DNA of 29,735 nucleotides, taken from positions 1 through 29,735 of IMG/VR virus record IMGVR_UViG_3300025151_000197, one strand, 5' to 3'. This DNA is from a virus. The translations under genes were made by a program, and so were the position numbers. The notes beneath the pieces were generated by a model. It was not told the DNA's origin, made no database searches, and saw nothing but the letters and a program-made list of their open reading frames with translations. The first letter of the stretch is position 1, and every line of letters begins with the position of its first letter. Positions 1,401 to 20,914 of this stretch are shown here, one piece after another.

Positions 1401-2246
1401 CTACACTCCGCACATTCCTTCGCACTCCGCTTTGAAGTCCCAAGTAAGTTGCCCCTTGTCCTCGTCAGAATCAAAATCAATCTCGCCAAGTGGCTTGCAT
1501 GACTTGTGTAGGTAAACTTCCATGCATGAATCAGTAGCGTATTTTTTATGCTGATCCCTTATGTTTTTATCAAACTCAACTGCCTCTTTAAAATGATTGG
1601 GTTCATTATCCCTAAGATCGCGCCATTCTGCGTCATTACGGAATGGACAATAAACGCAAGCGGAACGAGGAGGTTCGGGGTATCCGTTTTTTTTCATCCA
1701 TATCTTGCAATGATGCCTGTGCATTTGTAGCTCGATCAATGGCCAACGATTCTCCATCCATTTGTCCCGAGGTTCTTTCATCCTTTGAATCTCATCGTAA
1801 GATATGCCAATCCATTGAGTGACTTTTACTTCTTTTTCCCCACGCTTAATTCCATAAAGTTCCTTTATTTTTTTATGAATTGGTTTTATTTTATAATCCT
1901 GTGTACATGCCCTACCTATGGCAGCGGTCTTTTCCCCATTAGGTGATATACCAAACTTGGGTATAATACCCTTCATGTAAGTGCTTCCCTTTTTCCCGTT
2001 AGGCGTATCTTTCTGCCTTCTTTTCGGTTCTAAGCAATCCTTCGTCAGATTACCATAAGACACTCGATAAACAGGAAACGGCAATTCCCCCTCTAGCCAA
2101 TCCAAGTAATCATAAACACTTTGCGGTTCGGCTTGCGTATCGGCAAAGATCGCGCAGTCAGGCATCGGTGTAATCTCCCCATGCGCTGCCATCAATGCCA
2201 TTGTGCTTGATTGCACGCCCGCTCCTAATGACAATACGTACTTCAT
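1401..2246 (-). CDS. PP-loop ATPase, PAPS reductase-like (CysH/adenine nucleotide alpha hydrolase fold)
   Basis: The 281-residue product opens with LSLGAGVQSST (residues 5-15), a variant of the SGGxDS PP-loop that binds ATP or PAPS. It continues with an FADTQAEP strand and a RACTQDYKIKP segment typical of PAPS-reductase relatives. Cys114, Cys180 and the pair Cys197-x2-Cys200 could bind an iron-sulfur cluster or zinc. Such proteins adenylate or thiolate substrates; relatives act in sulfate reduction, tRNA thiolation and DNA phosphorothioation (DndC). Phage copies are common, but their substrate is usually unknown. Here the gene sits between the terminase and a run of small genes downstream of a DNA methyltransferase, so a role in nucleic-acid modification is an inference. 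Its middle part (about 1540-2010) is clearly richer in A/T than its neighbours, which suggests separate acquisition. Confidence 0.8.
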   Translation of the reverse strand: MKYVLSLGAGVQSSTMALMAAHGEITPMPDCAIFADTQAEPQSVYDYLDWLEGELPFPVYRVSYGNLTKDCLEPKRRQKDTPNGKKGSTYMKGIIPKFGISPNGEKTAAIGRACTQDYKIKPIHKKIKELYGIKRGEKEVKVTQWIGISYDEIQRMKEPRDKWMENRWPLIELQMHRHHCKIWMKKNGYPEPPRSACVYCPFRNDAEWRDLRDNEPNHFKEAVEFDKNIRDQHKKYATDSCMEVYLHKSCKPLGEIDFDSDEDKGQLTWDFKAECEGMCGV

Positions 2247-3177: not shown

Positions 3178-4047
3178 TCAGTTCCTTTCTCTCTCATTCA
3201 ATTCCTTCCATAAAGTTCTCCATGCCAGTTCCGCAGTTTGCGGCACTACTCCGTTCCCCAAGAGCGCAAGTCGCTTGTTCCTGTAGGCAGACCCATAAGG
3301 CTTTCCACCCAATCGGGTGACAACTGTTCTCGGTGACTCCCACTCGTATTGCTCGTCTCCTGGTCGAGCAGGCCAGCGTGTCTCTTCGCTTCCTCCGCCA
3401 ATACCTTTCCTCCCGTTCCGGGCTTGCGACTTCCCGGGTTGCCCGCTCGCGGACTTGGCCACATCTTGAGATCTCTCCCCAAGCATTTCTGATTGGACGT
3501 TATTGACGTCCTCGCTCCCTCCACGTGGTCGCTCGCTTGCGGAGTTGCCCAAGATAAAAATTCTTTTCCTTCTGTGAGGAGCGCCGACTTCTTCCGCTGA
3601 GAATATTCCTGCCGCCACCTCGTAACCATCCTCTTCCAAATCGCTGATGACTGTGGAGAGTCCAAGCGAGACGTGTCCCTCGACGTTCTCTGCAAAAATC
3701 CATTGAACTCCAATTGCCCTGGCGTGTTCCCTGATTTTAGGCCACAAGTGCCTTGGGTCTTCTTCCCCTTTTCGCTTCCCCGCGCTACTGAATGGCTGGC
3801 AGGGGTATCCACAAGTGAGTCCACGTACTTTTCCTCGAAAGATTGATGCAGGGAAGGTCGCAACGTCATCCCATATAGGTGCGGTATCCATCCTCCCTTC
3901 TTCAATTGCCTTAACCAATACTGCTTGGACATAGCTTTCCCGTTCGCAGTAACAGATCGTTCTAACATCCACGCCTGCTCTTCTAATTCCAAGCTCAAGC
4001 CCTCCGTATCCGGTACAAAAGCTGATAACGTTTTGGGGATTATCCAC
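3178..4047 (-). CDS. dcm: C5-cytosine DNA methyltransferase (Dcm family)
   Basis: The 289-residue enzyme transfers a methyl group from S-adenosylmethionine to C5 of cytosine in a specific DNA site. The motifs occur in canonical order: I (SFCTGYGGLELGIRRAG, residues 9-25, SAM binding), IV (GYPCQPFS, catalytic Cys83), VI (AENVEGH, residues 119-125), VIII (GAPHRRKRIFILG, from 155) and X (ALLGNGVVPQTAELAW near the C-terminus). The target-recognition region between VIII and X is short, as in compact phage enzymes. No cognate restriction endonuclease is recognisable next to it, so it probably protects phage DNA or alters expression rather than forming a restriction-modification pair. It overlaps the upstream sigma-like gene by eight bases, indicating one transcript. 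Confidence 0.92.
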   Translation of the reverse strand: MDNPQNVISFCTGYGGLELGIRRAGVDVRTICYCERESYVQAVLVKAIEEGRMDTAPIWDDVATFPASIFRGKVRGLTCGYPCQPFSSAGKRKGEEDPRHLWPKIREHARAIGVQWIFAENVEGHVSLGLSTVISDLEEDGYEVAAGIFSAEEVGAPHRRKRIFILGNSASERPRGGSEDVNNVQSEMLGERSQDVAKSASGQPGKSQARNGRKGIGGGSEETRWPARPGDEQYEWESPRTVVTRLGGKPYGSAYRNKRLALLGNGVVPQTAELAWRTLWKELNERERN

Positions 4048-4498
4048 ATTTGGACTCCTCCATCAATCGATTATACGCTCTGCGTATGGCAGGGTGAACG
4101 TATCGACCCTTCTCTATGCTCCACTTCCAATGATCTTGAAAATTATCCAATGCCCATGCTTCTTCCATATCTTGCTTCTCCTTCACCTTCTTTCTTCGAT
4201 CCAATAACTTCTTCTTCGAATACGCAGTATGATCAAACAATATGGACTTCTTGGAAATCAAAGGTTGAAAAAATACCTTCCTCTTCTTGTCCAACTGGGT
4301 GACCAAATGCCCGCATTCGCGAATGATATCTCGTACAATCAGACTAATCCGCCCCGCACCCACTCCAAAACGCTCGCCTATCTCCCTACACTTGTACCCT
4401 TCCAAATAATACATACTCACGATCTTGCGCTCACTTGCAGGCATAAGTCCCAATAATACGGATACCAAGTCCCTGATCTCCACCTCGTCATCACTCAT
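4040..4498 (-). CDS. Sigma-region-4-like helix-turn-helix regulator
   Basis: The N-terminal third of this 152-residue protein contains an HTH unit, LMPASERKIVSMYYLEGY followed by KCREIGERFGVGAGRISLIV (about residues 18-55). This matches the layout of sigma-factor region 4, where the second helix precedes a recognition helix after a GxG turn. The remainder is Lys-rich and helical and has no sigma region 2, so it is not a complete sigma factor. It may be a late-gene activator or a DNA-binding adaptor. It lies between an XRE-like gene (ATGA overlap) and the methyltransferase (eight-base overlap) and is the second gene of the leftward operon. Confidence 0.7.
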   Translation of the reverse strand: MSDDEVEIRDLVSVLLGLMPASERKIVSMYYLEGYKCREIGERFGVGAGRISLIVRDIIRECGHLVTQLDKKRKVFFQPLISKKSILFDHTAYSKKKLLDRRKKVKEKQDMEEAWALDNFQDHWKWSIEKGRYVHPAIRRAYNRLMEESKCG

Positions 4499-15587: not shown

Positions 15588-18500
15588 TCAGTCTTTGATT
15601 TTGTCAAGACCTCCGAGGTATTTCCAATACACCATGTCAAGAGGTGTGCCTTGAAGCATCGCTCCTTTGTATTCCTTATCTCCTGCAATCGCAGAGATGT
15701 CCTGCCATGCTCTGTCAAATGCGGTGGTTGGTGGTAGCAATCCTTCAAGGAACGCTTTAGCCGGGCCTTCTTGTTTGCCCTTTTGCACAAGGTATCTATT
15801 TATTCCTAGCAACTTCCAAAGATTGTTTTCAAGTAACTCGTCACGCTTTATCGGCCTTCCGTATAACAAGTCCTTCATCACGTCAGTTGACGCATTAGCT
15901 GCGGCAAAGACAGTAGCCAATGCAACTATGTTTCTCATTCCTCGCCCTGCAAGTTTTGCGGCCTGTTGTTTGTTACCCTTCTCAAAAGCCTCCCCCGCTT
16001 TGCGCAAGTCCTCGAATCCTGCCTCTCTGAATACGTCAAATTGTTTTACCGTAAAACTCTTCAGCATATAAAGTATCCTGGCATTGCCCGATTCATTATA
16101 AAACCTTGGCATCTCACCCAAAGTCGCAGGACTTAAATCTAGGAACTTGTACCATATCAATTCTTCCACACCCTTGGGTAAGTCCTTCGAGTTCGGATTG
16201 CTCTCTTGTAGTTCGCGCACCATGCTTTCCGCGCGCTCTCTTCCAAATACTGGTTCTAAGTCATCAGCAAGACCACTCGCATTATTGCGAGCTTGGGCTT
16301 TATACTTTCTCCATGCCGCATTCATGGTAGTGTTCTTACCTAACTGATCGAGCTTCTTGAGTCCGGTAACGGTAAATACCTTATCAAGAACCTTGGACAA
16401 TCCACCTCCGCTAGTAAGCGTATCGATGTTATGATCGGATAGATTGAAGTGTTTGACGAAATCGTAATTATCCGCGCGATTCACAAGTGACCTAAAAGTA
16501 TTTCCGAATCCATTGAAGTGGATACTGTATGCCAAGTCTCCAAGCTGAGTGATTGCAGATCCGAAGTTACCCATGACCTGGATATAGTTAAGGTTCTTTA
16601 TGCCCTGCACGAATGGAGCAACGGTCTTTCCGCTAAACCTAGACTGTATGATGCTTTGCAATTTACTTATGTCTTCGGGATTAAGTCCATCAACGTCATC
16701 TGCAAGCGTGCGTGCAACCGTGCCAGCCAACGATTCATCGACTTCCATGCGAATACCCAAGTCACTACCCTCTGTATCCTTGGGCTTGCGGAATAAAAAC
16801 TTTTTCCTTTCGGTAGCCTGCACGACACGATCAACGTAGTTCTGCATGGCATCGGCAGGATCGGCATAAGCATCAAGGAATCTGTCCTCGACTTGCTCTA
16901 TCTTTCTTTGCTTTACGTTGCCCGGAAGTATTCCACCCTTCTCCAACGGATACCCACGCAAAACCCTTGAGGTAATCTCTGCCGCTTCTTCCGTAGAGAT
17001 GTCATCGATTGATTCTAAATTCTTCTCAACCCTGTAATCCTCAAGAGCAATCTCCACTTGGTTTCGGGTATCACGCATATCATCGTTATCATCCAAAAAC
17101 TTCTTAAAGTTCTTATAGTCCTTGATTTGCCTCGGGAAATACTGTTCAAGGTATCCCACGTCGATCCCACCCTCTTCTCTTGCGTAGGTTCTTAATTCGT
17201 TCAAGGCTTGTCGCATATCGTCAAGCATGGCACGGTCTTTTATCGGCACACCAACCTTGTCCATGAACGTTCCAAGCCGAGATCCGTTAAGCAATAAAGA
17301 TTTGAATTCTCTTTGAAGGTCTTTTTTTCCACGCAACCTCTTTTGCATCATTCTCAAAAACGGACTGACGCGATCCAAGTATTGCCTGGTAGTAGTATTT
17401 ATATTTCTTTCGTGAGAGCGAAATACCTCCGCAAGTTTCGGACTTATATTCTTTAGCTTCCTTGATAACGGGGTAAGCAAGTCGCTGACAAACTCCTTAG
17501 CGCCATCAGTCATTTGCTTTAATTGACTACGCTCCACGTAAATAGCTTTGTCTGCGGTTTGTTGCGCTCTTTCCGCTCGCACTACATCCGGTTGCGCCTT
17601 CGTAGGATTCGCTTTGGCTTGAGCGTTCGCTTGCTTAAACTCCTTCCTTCGCATCAGTTTGCGCGCAACTGGCCCTCGCACCCCTGCCGCAATCATAAGC
17701 GCTCCAAGTATTGGCGCGATTCCCGCTTGCTTAAACTCTCCATCATCCTCTTCATTCGCAAGCAATCCATAAGCCGCTGCTCCGCCTGCGCCTATTGGCA
17801 TTGCGATGTTGAAATACTTCTCGTAACCCCTACCCAGCTTCTCCTCTGCCATGCGTTCCGATTTGGTCATCGGATCGGCTTGCTCCATAGGACGATCCCT
17901 AAGCGGAGTATTTTGTTCTTTTAAATTCCTACGTACCTTTTTGAAATTTATTGATAACAAATCTTTTTCAGATAAATTAAATTTTTTATCAAATGGAATA
18001 CCAGCATTTTTTAATCTTTTGTACACCCTTTGCACATCGTCAGACTTAATAACATCGGACACAAAGTTTTTTGGCCTTTTAGCCATTTCTTCAAATGCCT
18101 CAAGATACAACTTAGTGCCATCACCCTTTCTGAATTTATTTGGATCACCAATAATTTCTATAAAAATAGAATACTGATCATCCCGATCTCCTACTGTTAG
18201 GACTCGTCTATTTTCAAACGAAAATGGGTCAGCAGAATGCGTTATAGTAAAACCATTATTAGAATATTCTTTGTAAACCGGAAGTTTTTTTTCAGGTTGA
18301 AAATCTTTAGGTAGTGTTTTCCTTGGTGGCATCTGAGAGGCTTGCATCTGCGCCTCCAGGTCATCAAGCGTAAGGTTGTTACGTTTTAAAATGCGCTTCC
18401 GCTCGGCATTGAGCTTTTTACGTTGATTGCTCGCACCCTTGTTCTTGCCATGCTTGTGATCAAGCCTACCAATTTGCTCCTGCACTTCACGCAGTCTTGC

Positions 18501-19598
18501 GTTGTCTCCAACCTTCTGCATTCCAATGTCTACCTCGCGCATGAGCGGGGTAAAGATTTCATCTTGTTGCGCAAGTTGATCATCGAAGGTTTTTTGCAAG
18601 TTGGCCATTTGCTCGACAGTACCCAAATCTCTTGCTTGCCTTTGACCCTCTTCGGTTTGCCTCATGATACCTGATACAAGCTCATCTCCTTGCGCGGCTT
18701 GATCGTCCGCCACCCTTTGTATCTCGGATATTTCTCTAGTCGAATCAGTTATCGCAGGGTCTTTAAAGGATGGTTCTCCCAAGATGCGTTGTTGTTCTGT
18801 CGGTGTACTAAATGACTCTAGCGCTCCACGCGAAAAAGAAGGTGCGCTAAGATCACCCCTAGCCAATCCCTTGACGAAGGTTTCGGACTCATCAAGCACG
18901 CCAAGCTCAACCTTCTTCAATAGTTCTTTCGCCACTTCGTTTGAGTTTTTTAATCCGGCAAGCGCTGATACCAATGGCTTGATCTGCGGGCGGCCTACCG
19001 CATAATTATCTAAACCACCATCTTTATTAATTGTATCATCCACCGTCTTTTCGACTTCGGGCCTAGTCATGTTTTCTCTTATATCGTCACTCAGATTGTC
19101 CCTTAAAAACCTCGCTTCCACCGCACCAAGCCCGCCACCAAATATACCACCAAATAATATCGTACTCGCAATTTCCTCTTTCGTAGGGGCGCGATCCTCA
19201 TCAAGATACGTACGCGCATACAGTTCTCCGGTTGCCAGTCCTGCGCCTTGCGCCCCTCTGATGCCCGTACGTGCCGCAGTACCTACATTTGCAAATCGAC
19301 CTACGGGGACTGCGCCAAATGCCGTTGCCGCTCCTAGCTCGCCAAGACCAAGGTCTTCTTGCAAACCACGACTCATGCGATATTGTTGTGACAAATAGTT
19401 TCCAAGCGCTGATCCTCCCGCTCCACCAGGCAAACCTCCGAATATACCACCCACTAATGCAGGCACTACTTCCAACCCTATGCTAATTGCAGATTCGCCA
19501 AGGGTAGCTTCCTCGCGTTGTGGTTGTTCTGCTCCAACTATAAAATCACCGTAACCTTTGTCCAAGGCTTCGCCAATTGTCATCGTTTGGATTGCCAT
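15588..19598 (-). CDS. Very large virion/ejection protein with internal inserted domain
   Basis: The 1336-residue product is the last virion gene and is coupled to the previous one (TAATG). It has hydrophobic Gly/Ala-rich stretches near the N-terminus (residues about 35-70 and 145-165) and again around 600-640 (MPIGAGGAAAYGLL, ILGALMIAAGV), suggesting membrane insertion during genome ejection as for T7 gp16-like internal proteins. The rest is mostly helical and charged. Blocks such as EQYFPRQIKDYKNFKK and FGSAITQLGDLAYSIHF resemble large polyvalent protein regions. Residues about 430-560 (nt about 17910-18300) are markedly AT-rich and include RKGDGTKLYLEAFEEMAK and DVQRVYKRLKNAGIPF, a GNAT-like acetyltransferase pattern. 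The catalytic activity of that part is unproven. Confidence 0.7.
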   Translation of the reverse strand: MAIQTMTIGEALDKGYGDFIVGAEQPQREEATLGESAISIGLEVVPALVGGIFGGLPGGAGGSALGNYLSQQYRMSRGLQEDLGLGELGAATAFGAVPVGRFANVGTAARTGIRGAQGAGLATGELYARTYLDEDRAPTKEEIASTILFGGIFGGGLGAVEARFLRDNLSDDIRENMTRPEVEKTVDDTINKDGGLDNYAVGRPQIKPLVSALAGLKNSNEVAKELLKKVELGVLDESETFVKGLARGDLSAPSFSRGALESFSTPTEQQRILGEPSFKDPAITDSTREISEIQRVADDQAAQGDELVSGIMRQTEEGQRQARDLGTVEQMANLQKTFDDQLAQQDEIFTPLMREVDIGMQKVGDNARLREVQEQIGRLDHKHGKNKGASNQRKKLNAERKRILKRNNLTLDDLEAQMQASQMPPRKTLPKDFQPEKKLPVYKEYSNNGFTITHSADPFSFENRRVLTVGDRDDQYSIFIEIIGDPNKFRKGDGTKLYLEAFEEMAKRPKNFVSDVIKSDDVQRVYKRLKNAGIPFDKKFNLSEKDLLSINFKKVRRNLKEQNTPLRDRPMEQADPMTKSERMAEEKLGRGYEKYFNIAMPIGAGGAAAYGLLANEEDDGEFKQAGIAPILGALMIAAGVRGPVARKLMRRKEFKQANAQAKANPTKAQPDVVRAERAQQTADKAIYVERSQLKQMTDGAKEFVSDLLTPLSRKLKNISPKLAEVFRSHERNINTTTRQYLDRVSPFLRMMQKRLRGKKDLQREFKSLLLNGSRLGTFMDKVGVPIKDRAMLDDMRQALNELRTYAREEGGIDVGYLEQYFPRQIKDYKNFKKFLDDNDDMRDTRNQVEIALEDYRVEKNLESIDDISTEEAAEITSRVLRGYPLEKGGILPGNVKQRKIEQVEDRFLDAYADPADAMQNYVDRVVQATERKKFLFRKPKDTEGSDLGIRMEVDESLAGTVARTLADDVDGLNPEDISKLQSIIQSRFSGKTVAPFVQGIKNLNYIQVMGNFGSAITQLGDLAYSIHFNGFGNTFRSLVNRADNYDFVKHFNLSDHNIDTLTSGGGLSKVLDKVFTVTGLKKLDQLGKNTTMNAAWRKYKAQARNNASGLADDLEPVFGRERAESMVRELQESNPNSKDLPKGVEELIWYKFLDLSPATLGEMPRFYNESGNARILYMLKSFTVKQFDVFREAGFEDLRKAGEAFEKGNKQQAAKLAGRGMRNIVALATVFAAANASTDVMKDLLYGRPIKRDELLENNLWKLLGINRYLVQKGKQEGPAKAFLEGLLPPTTAFDRAWQDISAIAGDKEYKGAMLQGTPLDMVYWKYLGGLDKIKD

Positions 19599-20914
19599 TA
19601 CTGCTCCCTAATCGCTCCTTCGGCCAGTAATTCTTCGTAGGTTTTGCCTCGAAATTTGCCTCCGGATTTCAACATATTTATTGTTGCGGAATCTGTTATT
19701 TGCAAAGGTTTTGCACTTGGGCCTGCCATCATTTCAGCTACGCTTGGATCAAGATTTGAATAATCGTAATCTTGACTCATTAGATTAGGTGCTTCAGGTG
19801 TAACGTTATCGACTGCGTTTTCAACAGGCACGTCAACTAGAACAGGTTGCTCTCTTAAAACGTTTTGTGTAGATGATTCAAGTGACAAAAGTTGAGCATT
19901 TAAATCGCCTGCTATTCCATTCAAAGGGTACTTTGTAGAATCCTCTTCGTGTAACTCCAAGTAATCGTTAAATGTAACACGTTTATTTGAACCTGGTACT
20001 TTTACATTTGTTGATAGAATCTTACCTGTCATTTCTACAAGTGGCTTGAATCTATCAGAAAATGAAGGGCTATTTTTATTAGCCGCAGTTATTAGGTCTG
20101 CAATTCCCTTGGCTTTATAGTAACTACTAAGGGCTTTAGTACTTTCAAGTTTAGCCTTGTTTGTTTCCGACAATGTTTTCATGTCCTCTATTTTCATTTC
20201 TGCCATTTTCTCAAAGCCAAGAGTATCTGCAACTAGGCTTTCAATACTATCAGCACGCTTCTGTGCGCTTAACTGTAATTTGCGAAGGTTTCGTGCATCC
20301 CTAGCCTTTACGCTTGCAGGGTCTGCTGCCCTCACGCCTGCCGCATCCCTAAGTTGCGCAAGTTTTTCCTTCAATGCCGGATCTCTTATTGCCTCAAAAT
20401 CTTCTTGTTTCATGCGTGCTACCGCTACCCCAATGTCGCTAGTCAACGCCTCGTTTTGTTTTAGCTTAATGTTTGCATCCTTCAACTCCTGTGCCAAGCC
20501 GAGGTTAAACTTGTTAGTTTCGTTTAATGTTCTGCGCGCATCATCTTGTAGCTTCTTACTGCGCAACACTTCTCCACGCGCAAGCTTGCCTGCATACCCT
20601 TCGAGTTGCGCCATACTCATGTCTCCTTTGACAAACCTTTCACGCTCGGCAAAATCCTTCTTGTCCTGAGCCTCGTCTCCACTCATTCCTATCTGACTGA
20701 GCGCTTCGGGGTTCTCCTTGTAGTATGCCTCGATCTCACCCGTCAGCTTCGCACGCTTCTCCTTATTCAACCCGTACTCCTTGATCATGCCCCCGACTTG
20801 CGCGCCCATGTTTGCGAACATTTGTCCGCGAGCGCGTCCCGCCTCTATGATAGGTCGAGTATCGACCCGCGATAGCGCTGATCCGTAATTTCCTTTGAAG
20901 AATGGTGTAGCCAT
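19598..20914 (-). CDS. Internal virion protein, coiled-coil rich
   Basis: The 438-residue protein is dominated by charged helices (KEYGLNKEKRAKLTGEIEA, KARDARNLRKLQLSAQKRA, IEDMKTLSETNKAKLES) and has no catalytic motif. By position between the 683- and 1336-residue proteins it corresponds to the small internal/ejection proteins of podoviruses. The C-terminal part is less ordered. It starts six bases after its predecessor's stop and shares one base with the next start. Confidence 0.65.
   Translation of the reverse strand: MATPFFKGNYGSALSRVDTRPIIEAGRARGQMFANMGAQVGGMIKEYGLNKEKRAKLTGEIEAYYKENPEALSQIGMSGDEAQDKKDFAERERFVKGDMSMAQLEGYAGKLARGEVLRSKKLQDDARRTLNETNKFNLGLAQELKDANIKLKQNEALTSDIGVAVARMKQEDFEAIRDPALKEKLAQLRDAAGVRAADPASVKARDARNLRKLQLSAQKRADSIESLVADTLGFEKMAEMKIEDMKTLSETNKAKLESTKALSSYYKAKGIADLITAANKNSPSFSDRFKPLVEMTGKILSTNVKVPGSNKRVTFNDYLELHEEDSTKYPLNGIAGDLNAQLLSLESSTQNVLREQPVLVDVPVENAVDNVTPEAPNLMSQDYDYSNLDPSVAEMMAGPSAKPLQITDSATINMLKSGGKFRGKTYEELLAEGAIREQ

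Follow-up and report, generated by a model that had tools for sequence, protein, structure and literature searches.

Codons 426 to 561 of the gene of a 1336-residue protein in the virus record IMGVR_UViG_3300025151_000197 are probably a recently acquired cassette, which encodes a truncated GNAT-like domain in a linker of an ejection-type virion protein. Large proteins of unrelated phages repeatedly contain domains of this family, which in gp16-type proteins of marine podoviruses too are an optional insert; the domain would be delivered with the genome and act at entry. The analysis shows the insertion, the empty site in a relative, the coding status of the segment, the family to which it belongs and, in parallel, the optional presence of such a domain in gp16-type proteins. 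The DNA that was analysed (hereafter the window) is 29,735 nucleotides long, and the coordinates of the features are collected in Table 1.

Table 1. Features of the carrier gene and of its insert (positions in the window).
Feature	Position	Strand	Evidence
1336-aa carrier (P0001), probable ejection-type virion protein	15588..19598	-	ORF and translation
In-frame AT-rich insert, codons 426-561, truncated GNAT-like domain	17916..18323	-	absent in homologues, empty site, GC3 step, family score
Left flank of the insertion site, Ser421-Pro425 (SQMPP), same in L001	18324..18338	-	codon comparison
Right flank of the insertion site, Gln562-Leu566 (QNTPL; QDTPL in L001)	17901..17915	-	codon comparison
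Motif A-like segment RKGDGTKLYLEA, residues 490-501	18096..18131	-	G-x-G turn then helix α3; in register with the G-x-G/A-x-x-LY-x-x-A of the family
Motif B-like segment SDVIKSDDVQRVYKRLKNAG, residues 514-533, conserved Tyr	18000..18059	-	invariant S, D, S, R, Y, L, G

An earlier note, made from the sequence of the window, had described an AT-rich insert at 17910-18300 and quoted two peptides from it. Both peptides are present in the 1336-aa ORF and the insert is real, with slightly wider borders. A scan of IMG/VR gave 30 loci with relatives of the carrier, 27 of which are long enough to align and 26 of which cover the site (L002 begins at the insertion site and was left out of this count). 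The segment is absent from all 26, so that homologues without the insert, which the note had proposed to look for, do exist. None of the 30 loci holds a relative of the insert, and no large internal insertion is found elsewhere in the other members of the carrier family.

The closest homologue, L001, shows the empty site: the 136 codons of the window are replaced by two codons (T-R). The sequence reads ATG CCA CCT ACT AGG CAA GAT ACT CCG in L001, and ATG CCA CCA [AGG AAA ... AAA GAA] CAA AAT ACT CCG in the window. The DNA of the two viruses is 97.6% identical downstream of the site and 89.7% identical upstream. The simplest reading of this sequence comparison is that the insertion was gained in the lineage of the window.

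The base composition profile shows a sharply bounded step. The GC content is 32% in the insert, compared to 47% in the rest of the gene, and only about 0.2% of the 405-bp stretches of the window are equally AT-rich. The GC3 is 0.22 at residues 426-561, compared to 0.55 and 0.49 in the adjacent segments, and this value is the lowest among 411 coding windows. AT-rich relatives, such as L003-L006 and L024, have a GC3 like that of the insert. A similar trait is seen in the neighbouring gene (19598-20914, minus strand, 438 aa), whose C-terminal half is AT-rich and fast-evolving, with a GC3 which falls from about 0.5 to 0.2; this low-GC3 half is common to its homologues, and this family-wide trait has no obvious explanation. 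AT-richness was therefore rejected as sole proof of foreign origin, and composition alone is weak evidence for an insert. The status of the segment as an insert follows from its absence from the 26 homologues, not from its composition.

The nature of the inserted domain was approached through an intermediate family of phage proteins. Viral contigs were scanned for SDxxxSxx[AV]xR[VIM]YxxLxxxG, a pattern which is defined by the motif B-like residues, hence these residues were used for selection. All 25 loci obtained encode the motif within large phage ORFs, whose lengths range from 452 to at least 2594 aa (contig ends truncate several of them), and about 20 residues upstream each has, in register, a motif A-like stretch and then [L/M/A]Y. 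By long-range similarity, the loci form eight carrier groups. A family profile was made from 20 non-identical domains; the insert scores 29.9 bits against it (E 1e-7 in a set of 5001 sequences), whereas natural decoys reach 5.4 bits at most. Since the loci had been picked by a motif that the insert carries, a conditional null was also run. When the nine motif residues were implanted in 3000 natural decoys the maximum was 22.0 bits, and in 2000 motif-implanted shuffles it was 26.6 bits; no sequence of either set reached 29.9. The half of the insert upstream of the motif played no part in the selection. By itself it scores 3.8 bits, a value that 22 of 3000 decoys reach, and its alignment stops exactly where the motif begins.

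The family itself can be connected to known GNATs. L091 matches PF00583 with 26.0 bits (cutoff 20.7, E 1.2e-5) and the L098 domain alone with 21.6 bits, the other domains of the family being below the cutoff, and the profile-profile comparison of the phage family with RimI-type GNATs gives 96.2%. By these profile matches, the phage-protein domain family is a GNAT family. That the insert has a GNAT-like fold is likely, with good support from sequence comparison through this intermediate; its identity with family members is 19-27%. PF14542 (Acetyltransf_CG), which is likewise a short GNAT core (80 positions), matches family members weakly (E 3.8e-4), below its curated cutoff of 30 bits. Three domains of the family had no tblastn match in the records of isolated phages. 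The family also bears on a PHROG of unknown function, phrog_37402 (2639 positions): the stretch at about positions 990-1090 matches all five tested domains (L083, L084, L089, L098 and L105), and can probably be annotated as GNAT-like.

When eleven domains are aligned, the insert is seen to retain G-x-G, LY, and the S, D, S, R, Y, L and G residues; it thus has the arrangement found in the family, G-x-G/A-x-x-LY-x-x-A in register with SDxxxSxxAxRVYxxLxxxG. It departs from the full motif A (Q/R-x-x-G-x-G/A), which reads F-R-K-G-D-G in the insert. The term "GNAT-like domain" is used here rather than "canonical GNAT enzyme" because the Q/R at the start of motif A is replaced by Phe. The insert spans the C-terminal GNAT core only, roughly β2-β4, α3, β5, α4 and β6/7.

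These features leave room for a GNAT-derived domain which is catalytically dead, either a binding or folding module or a sequence that has been drifting since its recent acquisition. This reading makes the same claim on the fold as the one we prefer and differs from it on activity only; we regard it as a serious possibility, somewhat short of an even chance. The Phe at the start of motif A, the presence of the C-terminal core alone and the low identity with family members speak for it. On the other side, the G-x-G, the LY and the Tyr of motif B are retained, the C-terminal core seems to be all that the other family members have as well, and GNATs can be small, as PF14542 is.

The GNAT-like assignment made in the earlier note thus stands through the family, while direct searches with the insert are weak. 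No GNAT match was found for the insert in Pfam, PHROGs, NCBIfam or the PDB sequences, and PF00583 and PF13508 found nothing in the window. The only Pfam matches of the insert are TxDE (toxoflavin-degrading enzyme, E 0.021) and DUF1825 (E 0.013). A RimI-type GNAT profile made from 12 sequences of a phage collection gives it 0.7 bits, which 85 of 3000 decoys attain. The tblastn search of phages and plasmids with the insert gave no usable match, the three phage matches looking like chance. Three GTKLY-type patterns had one match each in viral contigs, and both of those that were checked were due to chance. KGxGTKLYxxA was rejected as a GNAT marker: in genome and viral contigs it matches many GNATs, and NuoF-like and other proteins too, so that it is not diagnostic alone. 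The pattern SDxxxSxDVxRVYKRL, nearer to the insert, had no match. No part of the family alignment proved sufficiently conserved to serve as a query for related loci. The AlphaFold2 model of the insert alone, from a single sequence, has a pLDDT of 50 and an uninformative fold; its predicted order (β-β-β-β-α-α-α-β) is compatible with a GNAT, not diagnostic of it. Structure searches with low-confidence models (pLDDT 50 and 45) listed no GNAT, which says little, and gave nothing usable.

The weak Pfam matches and the low RimI-type score would fit a segment whose fold is unrelated (VOC-like, for instance, or that of a linker domain specific to phages) and which resembles the motifs by chance. This is unlikely: none of the 3000 motif-implanted decoys equals the score of the insert against the phage family, and the upstream half, although not selected for, falls in register.

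The insert is known from one assembled contig only, and no close relative of it was found in viral and genome contigs, as would be expected if the assembly had joined two unrelated templates and the insert were not in the virus. Such a chimera is very improbable. The frame is kept at both junctions across 136 codons, and it remains open in none of 20,000 dinucleotide shuffles, which indicates that the insert is coding sequence; moreover, its content suits a type of domain found in just such proteins. In a 5.7-kb contig (L030, 2183-5658), both upstream proteins and the 34 N-terminal residues of the 1336-aa protein are encoded with 100% identity. A second assembly of the same or a near-identical virus therefore exists, and it ends before the insert. 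Least probable of all is a mobile genetic element removed after expression (intein, intron or homing endonuclease), which would agree with a clean in-frame insertion and an empty site in a near relative, but the junctions P|RKT... and ...LKE|QNT lack the Cys/Ser start and the His-Asn plus Cys/Ser/Thr end of an intein, which was thus rejected, Rfam detects no intron or other RNA element, and no nuclease or intein family matches.

The preferred reading, a GNAT-like cassette gained by the carrier protein, is strengthened by the other carriers of the domain. Ten of the 25 loci belong, by similarity, to the group of T7 gp16-type internal virion proteins. The carrier of L088 (1336 aa), whose GNAT-like domain has the canonical motif A, matches phrog_6651, an internal virion protein, with E 1e-40. 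It is preceded by two tail tubular proteins, two small proteins with matches to internal virion protein families (one gp14-like) and a 469-aa ORF, a neighbourhood which has the gp14-gp15-gp16 order of T7. The carrier of L083 (1986-6650, 1555 aa) has a pesticin-type lysozyme domain (Pfam, E 5e-40) at its C-terminus in addition to the GNAT-like domain. The domain is absent at the corresponding place in the gp16-type proteins of the cultured pelagiphages HTVC119P and HTVC200P, relatives with 44% identity, and of the uncultured MedDCM-OCT-S28-C10. The latter protein (L110, 292-3837 in AP013540.1) is annotated "protein transporter sec31", which is probably a misannotation.

Given the insert-free homologues of P0001 and the domain-free gp16-type proteins, the GNAT-like domain is, as judged from these comparisons, an optional insert in two carrier families which have no detectable homology with each other. 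Indeed, the comparison of P0001 with the gp16-type carriers gives nothing above noise (hhalign probability 0.2%).

The carrier of the window matches a virion structural protein family, phrog_6958, weakly (E 1.4e-3 in PHROGs); the match of its homologue L004 is stronger (E 1.5e-7). Three of 24 members of the carrier family have a glycine-zipper match in Pfam (best E 6.2e-5), which is compatible with insertion into a membrane. The search of PDB sequences with the 1336-aa protein gave no match. The predicted model of the insert-free homologue L012 is all-helical, with low confidence, and the equivalent of the insertion site is a coil with very low pLDDT. In BFVD, the top match of this low-confidence model is a PcfJ-like protein (E 8e-11), and further matches are proteins named large polyvalent protein associated. 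AlphaFold2 with a 24-sequence alignment of an insert-free homologue gives a pLDDT of 45, too weak for claims about the fold. With one inserted enzyme-like domain, a weak virion match and low-confidence fold matches to large polyvalent proteins, the carrier is at most a candidate for this class, whose members are large, late or virion-associated and unite disparate enzyme domains.

The order of the genes at the locus (683, 438 and 1336 aa) recalls, by analogy, the gp14-gp15-gp16 set of T7. We infer from the weak sequence matches and this context that the carrier is plausibly packaged and ejected; no gp16-type homology is detected. The N-terminal 30 residues of the protein (19500-19598, minus strand) are swapped among homologues: they read MAIQTMTIGEAL in the window, L004 and L012, and consist of repeats of the LDPNKEYxF or IDxEATxxYxQ type in L001, L008, L018 and others. 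From its sequence, this exchanged N-terminus looks like a modular tag.

Elsewhere in the window, nearly all of a DNA methyltransferase gene (phrog_363, E 3e-52) overlaps with a 267-aa ORF that is read in a different frame on the same strand (3178-4047 and 3246-4049, minus strand); the 267-aa ORF is probably spurious. The ORF at 1401-2246 (minus strand), which adjoins a terminase-like gene, matches a phosphoadenosine phosphosulfate reductase (phrog_424, E 2e-45) and is an auxiliary gene.

The following mechanism can be proposed. The linker that holds the insert is predicted to be unstructured and would be part of a helical virion protein of the ejection type, which may be packaged and delivered together with the genome. 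The inserted domain would then arrive in the periplasm or the cytoplasm at the moment of entry. It may bind an acyl-CoA via the G-x-G turn, and a host protein could be modified or bound before any phage gene is expressed, by acylation if the domain is active.

GNATs have been described among the domains of injected polyvalent proteins, with protein modification as their proposed role (Iyer et al. 2017, PMC5512222). These GNATs are RimI-like and belong to large phage proteins of several domains, for which packaging and injection are predicted, as they are proposed for the case presented here. Compared by description, they differ in that they form two families defined by their context (one beside an ART domain, one on conjugative elements), whereas here a truncated domain is inserted, optionally, into an ejection protein that is gp16-like or similar.

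Ejection proteins are known to swap enzyme domains: the peptidoglycan hydrolase of T7 gp16 is missing from P22, and in K1E and K1-5 it is the gp15 homologue that has lysozyme activity (PMC8954989). The T7 gp16-type proteins, or internal virion protein D, are large helical virion proteins with exchangeable enzyme domains (a lytic transglycosylase in gp16; PMC8954989), and P0001 may be a carrier of the same kind, although no homology between it and the gp16-type proteins that carry the domain is detected, and the exchangeable enzyme described in that work is a peptidoglycan hydrolase. Phages also have GNATs encoded by separate genes, which are not domains of virion proteins. The marine podovirus Skadi-1 has a solo acetyltransferase gene downstream of internal core genes (PMC10504331), the roseophages CRP-4 and CRP-5 have solo acetyltransferase genes (PMC6918029), and Rac of a phiKMV-like phage is reported, as cited in PMC10504331, to act on the host RNA polymerase.

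In the part of the literature that was covered, no paper was found to describe a GNAT domain that is optionally inserted in ejection proteins of the gp16 type or similar ones. The presence of GNATs in injected phage proteins was thus known already, and the recurrent optional insertion appears to be new. A broader view, which we offer tentatively, is that a mobile GNAT-like cassette repeatedly enters linkers of unrelated ejection proteins. A protein-acylating enzyme that is tethered to the DNA-injection machine might thus be delivered by phages at time zero, to act on host defence or transcription before phage gene expression. For a few phages, it is established that injected proteins take over the host early (N4 RNA polymerase, T4 Alt and P1 DarB; PMC5512222). 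The pair formed by the window and L001, together with gp16-type proteins with and without the domain, makes the contribution of the GNAT-like domain to an ejection protein directly testable.
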